The position numbers were made by a program, and so were the translations under genes. A stretch of 64,000 bases of DNA from an uncultured Marivita sp. (GTDB taxonomy: Bacteria; Pseudomonadota; Alphaproteobacteria; Rhodobacterales; Rhodobacteraceae). The stretch is from contig NZ_CANKYW010000005.1 in NCBI RefSeq assembly GCF_947488135.1, positions 1 to 64,000 of the forward strand, read 5' to 3'. This document shows positions 1 to 60,138 of this stretch, one piece after another (the stretch's first letter is position 1; the number at the start of each line of letters is the position of its first letter). The notes under the pieces were generated by a model. That model saw only the letters and a program-made list of their open reading frames with translations, was not told where the DNA came from and ran no database searches.

Positions 1-70
1 CGGGCGAGGCGATTCGAACGCCCGACCCTAACCTTGGCAAGGTTATGCTCTACCCCTGAGCTACGCCCGC
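1..70 (-). tRNA. tRNA-Gly (GCC), 3' end cut by window edge
   Basis: Reading the minus strand from position 70, a GCGGGCG acceptor strand is followed by a D-arm, an anticodon arm with loop TTGCCAA (anticodon GCC), and a T-arm with GTTCGAATC. The matching 3' acceptor strand runs off the window, so the last paired base, the discriminator and any CCA are missing. Confidence 0.95.
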
Positions 71-10907: not shown

Positions 10908-10984
10908 TCCCCCGAGGTGTTTTGGGCCCAAAGAAGCAGGGACGCGGATATTGACCGATCCGTGCCAAGAGCTTAAAGCGGTTC

Positions 10985-11037
10985 CGTGGCGATTTGTTAC
11001 CGGATTGCGGGCCACGTTAAACATGCCGCTAAAAGGT
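10985..11037 (+). promoter_or_regulatory. SAM-II riboswitch
   Basis: The sequence fits the SAM-II consensus. P1 is CGTGGC (10985-10990) paired with GCCACG (11011-11016), with the conserved GATTTG after the first strand and TTAAA after the second. The 3' segment CGCTAAAAGGT supplies the pseudoknot strand pairing with ACC at 10999-11001. SAM-II elements bind S-adenosylmethionine and repress methionine genes in alphaproteobacteria; here the gene is metZ. Confidence 0.95.
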
Positions 11038-11043
11038 CAGCCG

Positions 11044-11079
11044 AAAGCCCCTTTCGCTTGGCCGGAACGGGGCTTTTTT
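11044..11079 (+). terminator. intrinsic terminator between SAM-II element and metZ
   Basis: AAAGCCCC (11044-11051) pairs with GGGGCTTT (11069-11076) and the hairpin ends in six T residues. It begins seven bases after the riboswitch and ends 30 bases before the metZ start codon, so it can act as a regulated attenuator. Confidence 0.85.
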
Positions 11080-18773: not shown

Positions 18774-21700
18774 TCAGCCCAGTTCCGCCAGACGGTTCAT
18801 CGCGTCCTGCAATTTCGCCGCTTCGTCCTCGCGTGCGGCAAGATTGGCGCGGGTTTCCTCGACCACCTCTTCGGGGGCGCTTTCGACGAATTTCGGATTG
18901 TTCAACCGCCCCTTCATGCCGCCGATTTCCTTGGCGAGCTTTTGCAGGGACTTGTCGAGCCGTGCCTTTTCCTCGTCCACGTCGATGATATCCGCCAATG
19001 GCAGGCCAAAGGTCGCGCCATCCATCGGCACCGTTGCGCAGCCCTTGGGGAAGGCGTCCACAACCGTCAGATCGTCGATCCGGGCCAAGCGCTTGATCAG
19101 CACTTCGTTGCGCTCCCACGCGGCCTTGGCGGTGTCGTTCATGTCCTTGACCACCAGAGGCAGGTAGAGACCCACCGGCACATGCATCTGCTGCCGGGCC
19201 GAGCGGATGCCCTCGATCAGCCCGATCACCCAGTTCATCTCGCGGTCGGCCTCGGCGTCGATCAGATCGGTGCCGTAGGTGGGCCAATCCGCATGGATCA
19301 GCATCTTCGACCGGTCGCCGGTCACGGCCCACAGTTCTTCGGTGATGAAGGGCATGATCGGATGCAGCAGGATCAGGCATTGGTCGATGACCCAGGCCAT
19401 CACCGCCTTGGTTTCGGCCGTTTGCGGGCCCTCATCCAGCAGAAGCGGCTTGGAGAATTCCACGTACCAATCGCAGACCTTGCCCCAAACAAATCGATAG
19501 AGCGCTGCCGCCGCGTCGTCGAAGCGGTAGGCGTCCAATGCCGCATCCACTTCGCCGCGCACGCGGGCGGTTTCGCCGATGATCCACTGGTTCACCGTGG
19601 CAGTGGCCTTGGGAATGTCGGCGCTCGGGGTCCGGTTCTCGAACACTCCGTTCATCTCGGCAAAGCGGACGGCGTTCCAGAGCTTCGTTCCGAAGTTCCG
19701 GTAGCCCGCGATCCGTTGCATGTCGAGCTTGAGCACCCCACCAAGCGAGGCCATCGCCGCATTGGTGAACCGCAGCGCATCGGCGCCGTATTCGTCGATG
19801 ATCTCCAGCGGATCGACCACGTTGCCCAGTGATTTGGACATCTTCTTGCCCTTGGCGTCGCGGACGAGGCCATGCAGGTAGACATCCTTGAACGGGATCT
19901 GATCGACCACGGCCAGTTGCATCATCATCATCCGCGCGACCCAGAAGAAAAGGATGTCCTGTCCGGTCACGAGAACCGAGGTCGGGAAGTATCTTTCCAG
20001 TTCCGGCGTCTGCTCGGGCCAGCCCAGAGTGCCGATGGGCCATAGCCCGGAGGAGAACCAGGTGTCCAGCACGTCGGGATCGCGCCAGACCGGGAAGACC
20101 AGCCGCGTCGGGTCCTGATTGTTGGCCTCGTAGTCCGCAAGGCTCGCCGCGAGCATATGCGCGGCTTCGTCCCGGTTTTCGACCTCAACGACCCGCGCAT
20201 GGTTGAGCGGTGTCGGCAAACCGCCCAGCACGTCGCCGAACTGTGCCTGCACGTCCTCGAAACTCGCGGCCGCATGGTGACGCTCGTTGCCTTTCAGCAG
20301 GCTTTGCGCATCGAGCAGCCGGCCCATTTCCACCAGGTCGAGCGCGCCGTCGCCTTCATCGTCACGGAAACCTTCGCGCGCCAGGTCGAAGCCGTACCAG
20401 ACCGGAATTTGATGCCCCCACCAGAGCTGACGCGAAATGCACCAAGGTTCGATATTCTCGAGCCAGTGATAATAGGTCCGCTCGCCCGACTCGGGCACGA
20501 TCCTGACCTCACCTGAACGCACGGCCTCCAGTGCGGGGCCGACGATCTTGTCGGCATCCACGAACCACTGGTCGGTGAGCATCGGCTCGATGACAACTTT
20601 GGAGCGGTCACCGAAGGGCTGCATGATCGGTTTGGCCTCGACCAGCGGCACCAGCGTGTCCTCGCGCGCCTCGCCACCTTCTTCGGGCGCAAGCGGCGCT
20701 TTTGGGGACCCGAGGCGCGGATCGGTGACGGGCACCATCACCGCGAGACCTTCGGCGGTGATTTCCTCCACCACCCGCTTGCGTGCCTCGAACCGGTCGA
20801 GCCCGCGCAGGTGATCCGGCACGAGGTTCAGCGTATCGGTTTCCGCCTCGGTCAGCGTGCGTTCGCCGCGCGCCACGGCACCGGCCACCTCTGCCGCCTC
20901 GGCATAGGGAGCACCATCGTCGCGCATATGCGCTTTGGTGTCCATCAGGCGGTAGCAGGGGATGTTGCCGCGTTTGGCGACGCCGTAATCGTTGAAGTCA
21001 TGCGCGCCGGTGATCTTCACCGCGCCCGAGCCGAAATCGGGGTCGGGGTAGTCGTCGGTGATGATCGGGATCAGGCGGCGGTGCTCTTTCGGACCAACAG
21101 GAATTTCGCAGAGTTTTCCGACGATTGGTGCGTAACGCTCATCCGTTGGGTGAACCGCAACCGCGCCGTCGCCAAGCATGGTTTCGGGGCGCGTTGTGGC
21201 GATGGAGATATAGTCGCGCTCTTCCTCAAGCACGACGTTCCCGTCCTCGTCCTTTTCGACATAGGTATAGGTCGCGCCGCCCGCGAGCGGGTATTTGAAG
21301 TGCCACATATGACCGGGCACTTCGGTGTTCTCGACCTCGAGATCGGAAATTGCGGTCTCGAAATGCGGGTCCCAGTTGACCAGCCGCTTGCCGCGATAGA
21401 TCAGGCCCTTGTTGTACATATCGACGAAGACCTTGATCACCGCATCATGGAAATTCGGCGCACCTGACCCTTTGTCGGGATCGCCCGCAGCCCCGCCCAT
21501 CGTGAACGCCTCGCGCGACCAGTCGGCGGAGGCGCCAAGGCGCTTGAGCTGCCCGATGATGGTGCCGCGGGATTTGACCTTCTGCTGCCACACCCGGTCG
21601 AGAAACGCCTCGCGCCCCATCTCGCGGCGCGACGGCTCGCCATTGGCGGCCATTTCGCGTTCGGTCACCATTTGCGTGGCGATGCCCGCGTGGTCGGTGC

Positions 21701-21941
21701 CCGGCTGCCAGAGCGTGTCGAAGCCGCGCATCCGGTGCCAGCGCACAAGAATGTCCTGCAAGGTGTTGTTGAACGCGTGACCCATATGCAGCGAGCCGGT
21801 GACGTTGGGCGGCGGGATCATCACGCAGAACGTCTCGTCGCGCGAGGCATTTGCTCCGGCCTTGAAGGCCCCGCTGTCTTCCCACGCTTCATAAAGCCGC
21901 GCCTCGGCCGCTTGGGCGTCGAATGTCTTTTCCATCGCCAT
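18774..21941 (-). CDS. valS: valine--tRNA ligase
   Basis: About 1055 residues of a class I aminoacyl-tRNA synthetase that charges tRNA-Val. The HIGH-type motif is [14 protein letters not shown] (about residue 40) and the KMSKS loop is [10 protein letters not shown]. The editing domain lies between them ([17 protein letters not shown]), and the C-terminal coiled coil of ValRS ([16 protein letters not shown]) is present. The start [10 protein letters not shown] at 21941 is preferred; ATG 21935 is equally possible, and the longer upstream reading is not homologous. No T-box or other leader element was seen. Confidence 0.97.
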
Positions 21942-22060
21942 GGGGTCAATTCCCGCTTTTGTGCCGCCCGAACGGGCCGCAGGTGTTCCGTTGCGCCTCA
22001 TCTAGCGAATGGGCGGGAAAAGGAAAACCCAAGCGGGCTGCGAAACTGTTGGAGACCCCC

Positions 22061-22107
22061 GAAAAAGAAAAAACGGTGATGCCAAGGGAGGAGAGGCATC
22101 ACCGTTT
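22061..22107 (-). terminator. terminator of the DUF1127/CcsR-like unit
   Basis: On the minus strand a perfect 13-bp stem (AAACGGTGATGCC with GGCATCACCGTTT) holds a loop containing CTCCTCCCT, followed by TTTCTTTTTC. It is both the fourth anti-Shine-Dalgarno hairpin of the cluster and an intrinsic terminator. Confidence 0.9.
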
Positions 22108-22141
22108 CCAGTTCACGACATCCAGGGAGGAGGAGAGGATG
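22071..22141 (-). ncRNA. CcsR-like sRNA, distal copy
   Basis: Two hairpins 44 bases apart each present a C/U-rich loop. The first, at 22119-22141, has stem CATCC/GGATG and loop TCTCCTCCTCCCT; the second is the terminator hairpin at 22071-22107. In Rhodobacter sphaeroides the CcsR sRNAs carry CCUCCUCCC in two loops, lie in tandem downstream of a DUF1127 gene (ccaF1), and are processed from a common transcript. Gene order, loop motif and two-hairpin layout all agree. Exact RNA ends are unknown. Confidence 0.8.
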
Positions 22142-22179
22142 CCGATCTCTTGTGAGTCCGAAGACCCGAAATTTGTGAC

Positions 22180-22246
22180 GGTGACACGAGGGAGGAGGAG
22201 ACGTGCCACCGTCGATCTCGGAACACCCAGGGAGGAGGAGAGGGTG
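22180..22246 (-). ncRNA. CcsR-like sRNA, proximal copy
   Basis: Two hairpins 41 bases apart carry the CCTCCTCCC loop: 22224-22246 (stem CACCC/GGGTG) and 22180-22210 (stem GGTGGCACG with CGTGTCACC, one G-U pair). This is the copy nearer the DUF1127 gene, separated from the distal copy by a longer spacer of about 64 bases between loops. The loop sequence is complementary to Shine-Dalgarno sites, so it may base-pair with mRNAs or act as a decoy. Confidence 0.8.
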
Positions 22247-22299
22247 CCCGATCCGTGTTGGCGAGGGGCCCGTGCGGGGCCATGCTCACCGAATATCGT

Positions 22300-22518
22300 T
22301 CAGCTTTCGTAAGCTGCTTGATACGCAACGCGCTTGATCTCGGAATGGTTCAAACCCAGATCACACAATTCGCGATGCGACAGTGCGCTCAGTTCGCGCA
22401 GCGTGTTGCGGTAGATCTTGCGGCGCGCTGCTTTGGCGCGGTATTCTGTGATAAGCGCATTGACCCGATCCAGGATACCGGAGCCGACGGCGCCAAGTGT
22501 GTTTGTTTCGTATGCCAT
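22300..22518 (-). CDS. DUF1127 small protein, CcaF1-like
   Basis: A 72-residue protein (MAYETNTLGAVGSG...) with the arginine-rich DUF1127 helix RKIYRNTLRELSALSHREL followed by CDLGLNHSEI. DUF1127 proteins of this size with linked sRNAs include CcaF1 of Rhodobacter, an RNA-binding protein needed for maturation of the co-transcribed CcsR sRNAs. The CcsR-like hairpins lie directly downstream, so the same arrangement is inferred. ATG 22518 follows AAGAGCAG; the upstream extension to 22629 runs through the predicted promoter and is rejected. Confidence 0.88.
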   Translation of the reverse strand: MAYETNTLGAVGSGILDRVNALITEYRAKAARRKIYRNTLRELSALSHRELCDLGLNHSEIKRVAYQAAYES

Positions 22519-22564: not shown

Positions 22565-22591
22565 AGATAGGGAAATGCTGCGCCTGCACAA
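22565..22591 (-). promoter_or_regulatory. possible RpoH-type promoter of the DUF1127/CcsR-like unit
   Basis: On the minus strand TTG (22591-22589) is separated by 18 bases from CTATCT (22570-22565), matching the TTG-N17/18-CTATNT pattern of Rhodobacter RpoHI/RpoHII promoters. The expected start site is about 40 bases before the ATG. RpoH control of this locus is known in R. sphaeroides; here it is inferred from the motif. Confidence 0.5.
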
Positions 22592-22744
22592 TGGTAAAAT
22601 CCTTCAATGCTGCCATGCAGCAATTGCATAGGCCAAATGGTTCAAATTTGTGCGTTTTGCTCTAGGGCCGCTATTTTTCGGGCAAGGCGTTGAAGCCCGC
22701 CTGCTGGACTGCCATCTCAGTTACGGAACGGTGAAAGGTTGAGC

Positions 22745-23812
22745 ATGTCCGTAACATCTGAGCAGATTCGCGCAGCTTTGGACCGCGTGGCGATTCCGGA
22801 CGGAAAAACCCTCATTTCAGCCGATCTTGTCCGGGCCATCCAGATCGACGGCGGCACGGTGCGGTTCGTCATCGAGGCACCAACCCCCGAAGTCGCCCGT
22901 CTGATGGAGCCGGTGCGCAAGGCGGCTGAGGCCGTAGTGCGCGATTTGCCCGGTGTGTCCGATGTGTCCGTCGCCTTGACCGCGCATGGTCCAGCGGCGA
23001 CACCGCCCAAGGGGTTGAAGATCGGCGGGCATCCGAAACCGCAGGCCGGATCGCTCAAACCGTCCGGCGTGGCGCGCATCGTGGCCATCGGGTCGGGCAA
23101 GGGCGGTGTCGGCAAATCGACGGTGTCCTCGAACCTCGCCGTGGCGCTGGCGCGGGCCGGGCGCAAGGTCGGACTTCTGGACGCCGATATCTACGGCCCG
23201 AGCCAGCCGCGCATGATGGGCGTGTCGCAAAAACCCGAAAGCCCGGACGGCCAGACGATCATCCCGCTTCAGGCGCATGGCGTGACGGTCATGTCCATCG
23301 GTCTGATGCTGCCCGAAGACAAGGCCGTTGTCTGGCGCGGACCGATGCTGATGGGCGCGTTGCAGCAGATGTTGTCGCAGGTGGCCTGGGGCGATCTGGA
23401 CGTGTTGCTGGTCGATTTGCCGCCGGGGACCGGCGATGTCGCAATGACGCTCTGCAAGAAGGCGCAACCTTCGGGGGCCATCGTGGTCTCCACGCCGCAG
23501 GACGTGGCGCTGCTCGATGCGCGCAAGGCGCTGGATATGTTCGACACGCTCAAGACGCCCGTGCTGGGCCTGATCGAGAACATGGCCGTCTTCACCTGCC
23601 CGCATTGCGGTGGCGAGAGCCATATTTTCGGTGCCGGCGGCGTGGTTGACGAAGCGGAGGCGCGCGGCGTCCCGATCCTCGCGCAACTGCCGCTCGATCT
23701 GGACACGCGTCTGGCCGGGGATGGCGGTGCGCCGGTGGCTGCGGGGGATGGGCCGATGGCCAAGGCCTATGCGGCGCTGGCGGATCGGTTGATCGAGGGC
23801 GGCATGGCCTGA
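22745..23812 (+). CDS. mrp: Mrp/ApbC-type iron-sulfur cluster carrier ATPase
   Basis: The 355-residue protein has an N-terminal MIP18-like (DUF59) domain (residues about 5-80), a linker, and a ParA/MinD-like ATPase domain. The deviant Walker A is [11 protein letters not shown] (about residue 118), and the CxxC pair FTCPHCGG binds the bridging Fe-S cluster between two subunits. It delivers Fe-S clusters to apo-proteins in the cytoplasm. ATG 22745 follows GAAAGG; a TTG two codons earlier is less likely. Confidence 0.95.
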
Positions 23813-28738: not shown

Positions 28739-28859
28739 CGCTCTGCCTCCCGCGCATCGAACATATCAAGCCTTCGGGTCAGACCCAAAGACGGTGACTG
28801 TCACCACACCGGAGTACCGTCACATCCCGCGCACCCCGCGCGAGTGTAGGGTGATCTGT

Positions 28860-29012
28860 CACGGCAGGTCTCCTGACTTGCGGGTCGGGGCGTGTGTCGG
28901 GCCTTCCCGGTTTCCCAGTGGCATATGCCGAACACGCTCGCCGCTTACAGTTGCGGGGGCAGTCGTGGGGTTTCACCACGTTCCCTTTTCACCGGGGTTG
29001 GCCCGGACCATG
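28860..29012 (-). promoter_or_regulatory. cobalamin riboswitch
   Basis: On the minus strand the conserved blocks of the AdoCbl riboswitch occur in order: GGTGAAAAGGGAAC, GGTGAAA, CTGCCCCCGCAACTGT, AGCGGCGAGC, the B12 box GCCACTGGG, CGGGAAGG, and the closing GACCCGCAAGTCAGGAGACC. It lies about 120 bases before btuC. Small hairpins at 28793-28805 (GGTGA-CTG-TCACC) and near 28780 may form the expression platform. Confidence 0.95.
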
Positions 29013-29063
29013 ACGCATCCGGCGTACAACCGGGCAGATCGCAATGCAAGCTTTGACGATCCG

Positions 29064-48788: not shown

Positions 48789-48879
48789 GCCGGGATTAGT
48801 TCTGCAAAGACGTTGAAAGTCAAACGCTTGCGCATCGCCGCTCATGCAGCGCATTCAAATGATTGCATTTGGAGAAAGT

Positions 48880-48964
48880 GGTGGGCGACCCTGGAATCGA
48901 ACCAGGCGTGCGTCTCCGCGAGGGAGTTACAGTCCCCTGCCACACCTTGCGGCCTGTCGCCCAC
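48880..48964 (-). tRNA. tRNA-Tyr (GTA)
   Basis: On the minus strand the gene starts GTGGGCGACAGG and ends CGCCCAC, with anticodon loop CTGTAAC (anticodon GTA at 48930-48928), T-arm GGTTCGATTCC, and a long variable arm (CCTCGCGGAGACGC region), as expected for a class II tRNA-Tyr. CCA is not clearly encoded. Confidence 0.95.
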
Positions 48965-60100: not shown

Positions 60101-60138
60101 CGTGTTAGGCGGGACCTAGCAGTCAGGAGGAGGTCAGC

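Follow-up and report, generated by a model that had tools for sequence, protein, structure and literature searches.

A small gene of the DUF1127 type in the genome of an uncultured Marivita sp. is followed on the minus strand by a cluster of hairpins whose loops complement Shine-Dalgarno sequences, and the locus raises the question of whether these hairpins represent a known kind of trans-acting riboregulator and, if so, which genes it would address. From the analysis of the 64,000-nucleotide stretch of DNA that carries it (the window) and of related genomes, we conclude that the locus is a CcaF1-CcsR or cuckoo-type (CIN1) operon, a known kind of regulator represented here by two units. A promoter driving one transcript of the DUF1127 gene and the hairpin array, from which trans-acting anti-Shine-Dalgarno small RNAs would be released, is very probably the best explanation of the whole.

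Read 5' to 3' on the minus strand, the promoter region (22628-22565) is followed by the DUF1127 gene, a leading hairpin H0, hairpins H1-H4 and a T tract, flanked by two larger open reading frames:

22739-23812, plus strand: divergent open reading frame upstream of the DUF1127 gene, which we take to be of the Mrp/ApbC type
22615-22628, minus strand: distal promoter box TGCAATTGCTGCAT (TGCA-N6-GCAT), a motif conserved across loci
22586-22591, minus strand: -35-like TTGTGC, which differs from the RpoH CTTGAA
22575-22588, minus strand: proximal promoter box TGCAGGCGCAGCAT (TGCA-N6-GCAT), overlapping the -35-like element
22565-22571, minus strand: -10-like CCTATCT, conserved in the genus
22300-22518, minus strand: CcaF1-like DUF1127 gene, 72 aa (PF06568, 37.4 bits, cut-off 23.3, E 2e-9)
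22260-22290, minus strand: leading hairpin H0, without an anti-Shine-Dalgarno loop; outer helix 93% and inner helix 76.5% paired, with 4 outer-helix pairs changed on both sides across 17 genomes
22219-22250, minus strand: hairpin H1, loop CTCCTCCTCCC; inner 5 pairs 98.8% paired, 3 changed on both sides
22177-22213, minus strand: hairpin H2, loop CTCCTCCTCCC; z -5.8, 98.5% paired, 5 pairs changed on both sides
22116-22144, minus strand: hairpin H3, loop CTCCTCCTCCC; z -3.6, 99.3% paired, 4 pairs changed on both sides
22106-22115, minus strand: unpaired conserved linker TGAACTGGAA between H3 and H4, with few changes in 17 genus sequences
22071-22107, minus strand: terminator-like hairpin H4, loop CCTCTCCTCCC; z -7.2, 99.5% paired, 3 pairs changed on both sides
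22061-22074, minus strand: T tract after H4 (T6CT5), five T invariant in 17 genus sequences
18774-22001, minus strand: large open reading frame downstream of the array, by recognition presumably valyl-tRNA synthetase

The first-pass annotation had described four minus-strand hairpins with anti-Shine-Dalgarno loops, spaced by 41, 64 and 44 bases behind a DUF1127 gene, the last doubling as a terminator. The four hairpins are indeed present (H1-H4, 22250-22071) at measured loop-to-loop distances of 40, 65 and 39, near those claimed, the gene in front of them is confirmed as DUF1127 by its Pfam match, and the cluster has a terminator-like end in which H4 is followed by the T tract; H0 and the conserved promoter boxes are additions to that description. 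A terminator pattern scanner that accepts loops of at most 8 did not list H4, because the H4 loop is too long for it. In an alignment with 17 relatives, RELxxLG is invariant in the DUF1127 protein.

The loop core CTCCTCCC occurs four times in the 64-kb window, all within one 152-base stretch and on a single strand; with a chance expectation of 2.1 and four or more occurrences in 12/100 shuffles, it is therefore the clustering that is remarkable and not the number. The whole hairpin stretch folds beyond its shuffles (z -5.6; 0/200), as do H2, H3 and H4 individually (0/200 as good for each), H1 alone being no better than shuffled sequence (z -1.2; 25/200). On the minus strand of the window our hairpin finder returned five hairpins of this kind, of which the fifth, at 60132, stands alone; the plus strand gave none and the reversed sequence, used as a control, a single one. 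On the complement read forward it returned four, three of them within the same array, a control that is not independent since CTCCTCC mirrors itself. The strong conservation of the unpaired linker before H4, in which one A is absent from 5 of 17 genus sequences, might be indicative of a site of processing or of protein binding.

Lack of hairpin conservation in related genomes had been named at the outset as grounds for abandoning the small-RNA reading, and conservation is what we observe: a match to the CcsR1 model (RF02791) is found in 17/17 genus genomes (best E per genome <=2e-6) in a search run at the loose limit of E 0.1, at which 5/14 control genomes match, and at E <=0.01, where 1/14 controls matches, in 126 of 149 family genomes sampled at one per genus. 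The number of hairpins in the genus is always even, with four in eight genomes (the Marivita window included), six in four and eight in five; loops lie alternately about 40 and about 64 apart, and at 17/17 genus loci the final one reads CCTCTCCTCCC. The anatomy agrees with the earlier reading of apparently two small RNAs rather than four, the locus having two units in a genus that has two, three or four. Further RF02791-like matches, perhaps second arrays, lie on another contig in some genus genomes (G157:C6:2365-2448, G163:C2:3951-4016 and G150:C30:594-680; E 3e-5 to 1.4e-4).

Beyond the genus, 30 array loci fetched by the RNA carry 2 to 14 hairpins according to our own finder, and a loose pattern places a DUF1127 gene upstream of the array at 19/30 and does not at 11/30. 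A second group of 41 relatives was fetched by the DUF1127 protein alone and therefore provides an independent test of the link between gene and hairpins: all 41 have at least four anti-Shine-Dalgarno hairpins behind the DUF1127 gene, with a range of 4 to 15. Within the fetched DNA, whose flanks are so short that absence means little, the upstream open reading frame has a match in 38/41 of these relatives, and the initial portion of the downstream frame has one in 21/41. The Marivita genome itself contains six DUF1127 matches, and RF02791 at E 0.1 matches there solely behind the gene at 22300-22518. Another of its DUF1127 genes, at locus L064, has an ar14-like match (30.1 bits, E 0.0048, under gathering), which yields a second candidate locus:

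1215-1094, minus strand: L064, contig C1 near 528 kb of the Marivita genome, a pair of hairpins whose loops contain CTCCTCCC

The L064 hairpins are preceded by a pair of overlapping genes of the DUF1127 type, 74 and 75 aa long, of which the second only just attains the Pfam cut-off, and TGCAGTGCAGCAT upstream resembles the proximal promoter box.

Covariation in the 17 genus sequences supports the two units as structured RNAs. In the last unit 99.4% of cells are paired and 7 pairs have changed on both sides, a number of changed pairs equalled by 1/500 shuffles, and in the first unit taken with H0 93.5% are paired and 14 pairs have changed on both sides (0/500 shuffles). The covariation score of either unit was matched by 0/500 shuffles, and sliding the partners by 1-3 columns lowered pairing to <=60% in both; the count of further pair types was not above shuffles (170/500 for the last unit, 142/500 for the first unit with H0). 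Within these changing stems the loop core CTCCTCCC is invariant across both units, except in the first loop of L047.

In the covariance-model search that had been proposed as a check, both two-hairpin units match CcsR1 at relaxed threshold (41.0 and 31.7 bits, E 6e-8 and 3.5e-5) as well as ar14 (RF02344; 42.4 and 35.5 bits), and nothing in the hairpin stretch reaches the respective gathering cut-offs (65.3 and 58.8 bits). That of RF02791 is reached by 8/149 family genomes only and is therefore narrow. We file the locus as cuckoo/CIN1 type, a family and locus reportedly due to Reinkensmeier and Giegerich in 2015, rather than as a member of RF02791: tandem hairpins with a conserved loop and variable stems are found here together with a short DUF1127 gene. 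The Rfam similarity, loop motif, gene order and covariation all fit the grouping into two two-hairpin units as in Rhodobacter CcsR, which the first-pass annotation had put forward.

Among other features, the window contains a cobalamin riboswitch (28846-29027, minus strand, 132 bits), behind which lie open reading frames that we take to encode an ABC transporter and ExbB/ExbD/TonB parts, and a SAM_alpha riboswitch (10976-11052, plus strand, 62 bits). A tRNA-Tyr (48879-48962, minus strand) is matched by ARAGORN and is absent from the gathering-threshold listing for the Rfam tRNA model, and a tRNA cut by the window start (1-70, minus strand) is listed by Rfam only and not by ARAGORN.

Upstream of the DUF1127 gene, TGCA-N6-GCAT occurs twice at the Marivita locus and at all 17 of its nearest named relatives (L067-L083, of which L080-L082 are from other genera). 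Such pairs are present at 33/42 loci, with the boxes 40 bases apart in 27 and 39 in 6, while 8/42 loci have one box and 1/42 has none (at least one in 41/42); 400 kb of the Marivita genome contain 17 single boxes and no pair at 39-40 bp. The idea that the boxes are a peculiarity of the genus was set aside, as one or more of them are present at 13/16 loci from other genera. Another candidate motif, GCAT-N3-TG-N3-T, which is the VtlR/LsrB box known from Brucella and Agrobacterium, was rejected, being found at 7/42 loci in scattered positions and absent at the Marivita locus. Next after the proximal box comes CCTATCT in most of the genus, CCCATGT-like elements taking its place in others; both resemble the RpoH -10, whereas the -35-like TTGTGC departs from CTTGAA. 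The S. meliloti RpoH1 consensus is given as CTTGAA-N16-CCTATAT (PMC8844928), the promoter of CcaF1-CcsR in R. sphaeroides is assigned to RpoHI/RpoHII (PMC10253847), and the site of the LysR-type activator LsrB in the NfeR1 promoter of Sinorhizobium is reported to have the motif TGCA-N6-GCAT (PMC10746234). VtlR, the LsrB of Agrobacterium, is described as a direct activator of abcR1 and of the small hypothetical protein Atu1667 (PMC7486931), and LsrB is called unique to Rhizobiales on the basis of a tree with two other alphaproteobacteria (PMC11975290). In a limited search of the open-access literature we found no paper joining LsrB with CcsR, which the central CcsR/cuckoo papers may nonetheless mention. 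We take Atu1667 to be of the DUF1127 type.

From this organization we infer that one stress-type promoter with two LysR-type boxes would drive a transcript that encodes the small DUF1127 protein and, at its 3' end, contains two two-hairpin RNAs in tandem. RNase E, helped by the DUF1127 protein, would cut out the two-hairpin RNAs, as reported for R. sphaeroides, and the released RNAs would act in trans through a loop that reproduces the anti-Shine-Dalgarno of 16S rRNA, lengthened to CUCCUCCUCCC, pairing with G-rich Shine-Dalgarnos and thereby blocking translation.

Genes whose Shine-Dalgarno is perfectly complementary to the loop can be counted directly. GGGAGGA, the complement of the loop sequence UCCUCCC, lies 4-10 bases before an ATG at 98 sites of the Marivita genome, as against 4 for the reversed pattern; its first G only wobbles with the ribosome. 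We read 97/98 sites, the remaining one being the array's own opposite strand, dropped 18 without an open reading frame of 80 codons, and scanned the 79 kept genes for protein families as a set, 40 of them singly. At least 31/79 encode solute-binding proteins (DctP 8, SBP_bac_1 7, Peripla_BP_4 6, TctC 5, Peripla_BP_6 3, NMT1 type 2). With AAGGAGG, a control sequence well matched to the ribosome (80 sites at 79 loci, of which 60 were kept and 19 dropped), the figure is at least 1/60 among the 25 commonest of 87 families, and with CGGAGGA/TGGAGGA, one base away (136 sites; 70 loci taken, the first 30 and then 40 hand-picked, from contigs C2-C5, two useless; 28 dropped, 42 kept), it is at least 2/42 among the 25 commonest of 68. 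The corresponding Fisher p values, with control counts among the 25 commonest families, are 2e-8 and 3e-5, and the printed N-termini of both control sets reveal no obvious further solute-binding protein. By a home-made rule, signal-like N-termini number 39/79 in the GGGAGGA set, 12/60 for AAGGAGG and 7/42 for CGGAGGA/TGGAGGA. The reverse question, whether solute-binding genes as such are led by GGGAGGA, had too few genes behind it to count as support: a search of 464 kb based on open reading frames listed no such gene, a translated search recovered the one that the list had missed, which has GGGAGGA, and 1.01 Mb of own sequence added few unselected solute-binding genes, stretches cut near the start being lost. 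The GGGAGGA set also includes a PQQ alcohol dehydrogenase, a molybdopterin oxidoreductase and a pyridine-nucleotide oxidoreductase, the last presumably Lpd, which bring to mind the C1 and pyruvate dehydrogenase effects reported for CcsR1-4.

How closely this mark is tied to the array was gauged in relatives, where the counts are sums over families rather than per-protein tallies. Solute-binding genes make up about 9/23 of the GGGAGGA genes in six other array-bearing genera (30 loci, 7 dropped) and about 10/47 in seven genomes without a detected array (60 loci, 13 dropped); in all of the seven but G057 and G074, a further scan with lax filters again showed no array, its best E of 0.017 being at noise level (12/14 controls match). 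The two proportions do not differ significantly (p 0.15), and barely do so when the Marivita genome is added to the former (40/102, p 0.04). The array-less set is still above the Marivita genome's controls (p 6e-4), and the GGGAGGA mark therefore exists without a detectable array, where other anti-Shine-Dalgarno RNAs, or a non-RNA cause, may hold it. Because the association with solute-binding genes, perhaps weaker, is thus also found in array-less relatives, it is suggestive only as a pointer to the targets of the array. A tracking of array presence by GGGAGGA density was rejected (median 18.9/Mb without an RF02791 match, n=23, three of these taken as left over, and 20.9 with one, n=126; genome sizes rounded; p 0.23). 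A test of whether the DUF1127 genes avoid pairing with their own loops, at 21 loci compared with Marivita genes, gave p 0.27 with longest starts and p 5e-4 with best-site starts, the latter against a biased background. We found neither the link between GGGAGGA and solute-binding genes nor the paired TGCA-N6-GCAT boxes in print in a limited search of the open-access literature, though the central CcsR/cuckoo papers may mention them.

Fixed loops could also serve as a sponge or decoy that binds the DUF1127 protein or another, or titrates some factor, with no mRNA silenced. The wide variation in array length is what titration would predict, the GGGAGGA mark of array-less genomes is compatible with it, and CcaF1 of R. 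sphaeroides is reported to bind RNA (PMC10253847). The role of DUF1127 is disputed: a further study sets RNA binding by CcaF1 beside binding of the sensor kinase PhoR by related proteins, states that CcaF1 can replace a PhoR-binding DUF1127 protein, and reports that RNA binding was not found for Salmonella YjiS (PMC12501420). We nevertheless regard a sponge as unlikely, since the loop perfectly complements mRNA sites that mark a functional class, and the same loop motif is described as silencing target mRNAs through pairing in NfeR1 and AbcR1 of S. meliloti (PMC10746234, PMC8844928). Still less probable is a structured 3' UTR that merely stabilizes or ends the DUF1127 mRNA, its loops unused in trans: the position of the hairpins between stop codon and T tract would suit it, but stems that change with compensation around a fixed loop core do not, as a stabilizer needs no fixed loop, nor does the occurrence of the unit 2 to 4 times in the genus. 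A functionless, unrelated array of C-rich repeats, for which it might be argued that CCTCCTCCC is no commoner in the Marivita genome than its reversed form (16 vs 18), is practically dismissed by conservation, covariation and gene linkage.

The preferred reading, an operon of a DUF1127 gene and trans-acting anti-Shine-Dalgarno RNAs, invites comparison with three known systems. The CcaF1-CcsR1-4 operon of R. sphaeroides (RF02791), described with an RpoHI/II promoter and RNase E processing (PMC10253847, PMC8307010), resembles the Marivita locus in that a DUF1127 gene of 71-72 aa precedes tandem two-hairpin RNAs, which have CCUCCUCCC loops, and a terminator. It differs in having four units where the Marivita locus has two; the last Marivita loop is CCUCUCCUCCC and the Rfam score remains under gathering, and the extra leading hairpin H0 is a candidate difference. 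With the cuckoo RNA family and CIN1 as described (PMC10253847, PMC4504443), the locus shares variable stems, a fixed CCUCCUCCC-type loop and a short DUF1127 gene, whereas the motif description of 2-4 hairpins covers the 4 of the Marivita window and is exceeded by up to 8 in the genus and up to 15 in relatives. A limited search of the open-access literature yielded no paper on DUF1127 with a Roseobacter small RNA, or on a Marivita sRNA. Our data extend the CcsR type into roseobacters and present its unit as an expandable module, with 2 to 4 units within one genus.

NfeR1/alpha-r14 (RF02344) and AbcR1 (alpha-r15) of Sinorhizobium have in common with the array the anti-Shine-Dalgarno CUCCUCCC, which lies within the NfeR1 loop (PMC10746234) and constitutes aSD1 of AbcR1; when aSD1 was mutated, the solute-binding-protein mRNA SMc03121 was no longer repressed (PMC8844928). 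NfeR1 also shares the TGCA-N6-GCAT promoter box with the Marivita locus, and transporter solute-binding proteins are targets of NfeR1/AbcR1 and predicted targets here; NfeR1/AbcR1 are described without a DUF1127 gene, and NfeR1 with three hairpins, in contrast to the DUF1127-linked two-hairpin units of Marivita. Promoter and likely targets together hint at a control of nutrient uptake. We propose, tentatively and as a possibility we would not yet favor, that the CcsR array of roseobacters corresponds to NfeR1/AbcR of rhizobia. A regulator of the LysR type, occupying both boxes at a distance of some four helix turns, would induce an expandable array of anti-Shine-Dalgarno loops whose regulon is encoded by the Shine-Dalgarno sequence: the leading G of GGGAGGA, which pairs with the last C of the loop and only wobbles with 16S rRNA, would mark solute-binding and some C1/carbon genes for repression, with AAGGAGG housekeeping genes escaping. 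If a LysR-type activator and a single deciding Shine-Dalgarno base do operate in this way, Rhodobacter CcsR and rhizobial NfeR1/AbcR would be one regulatory scheme.
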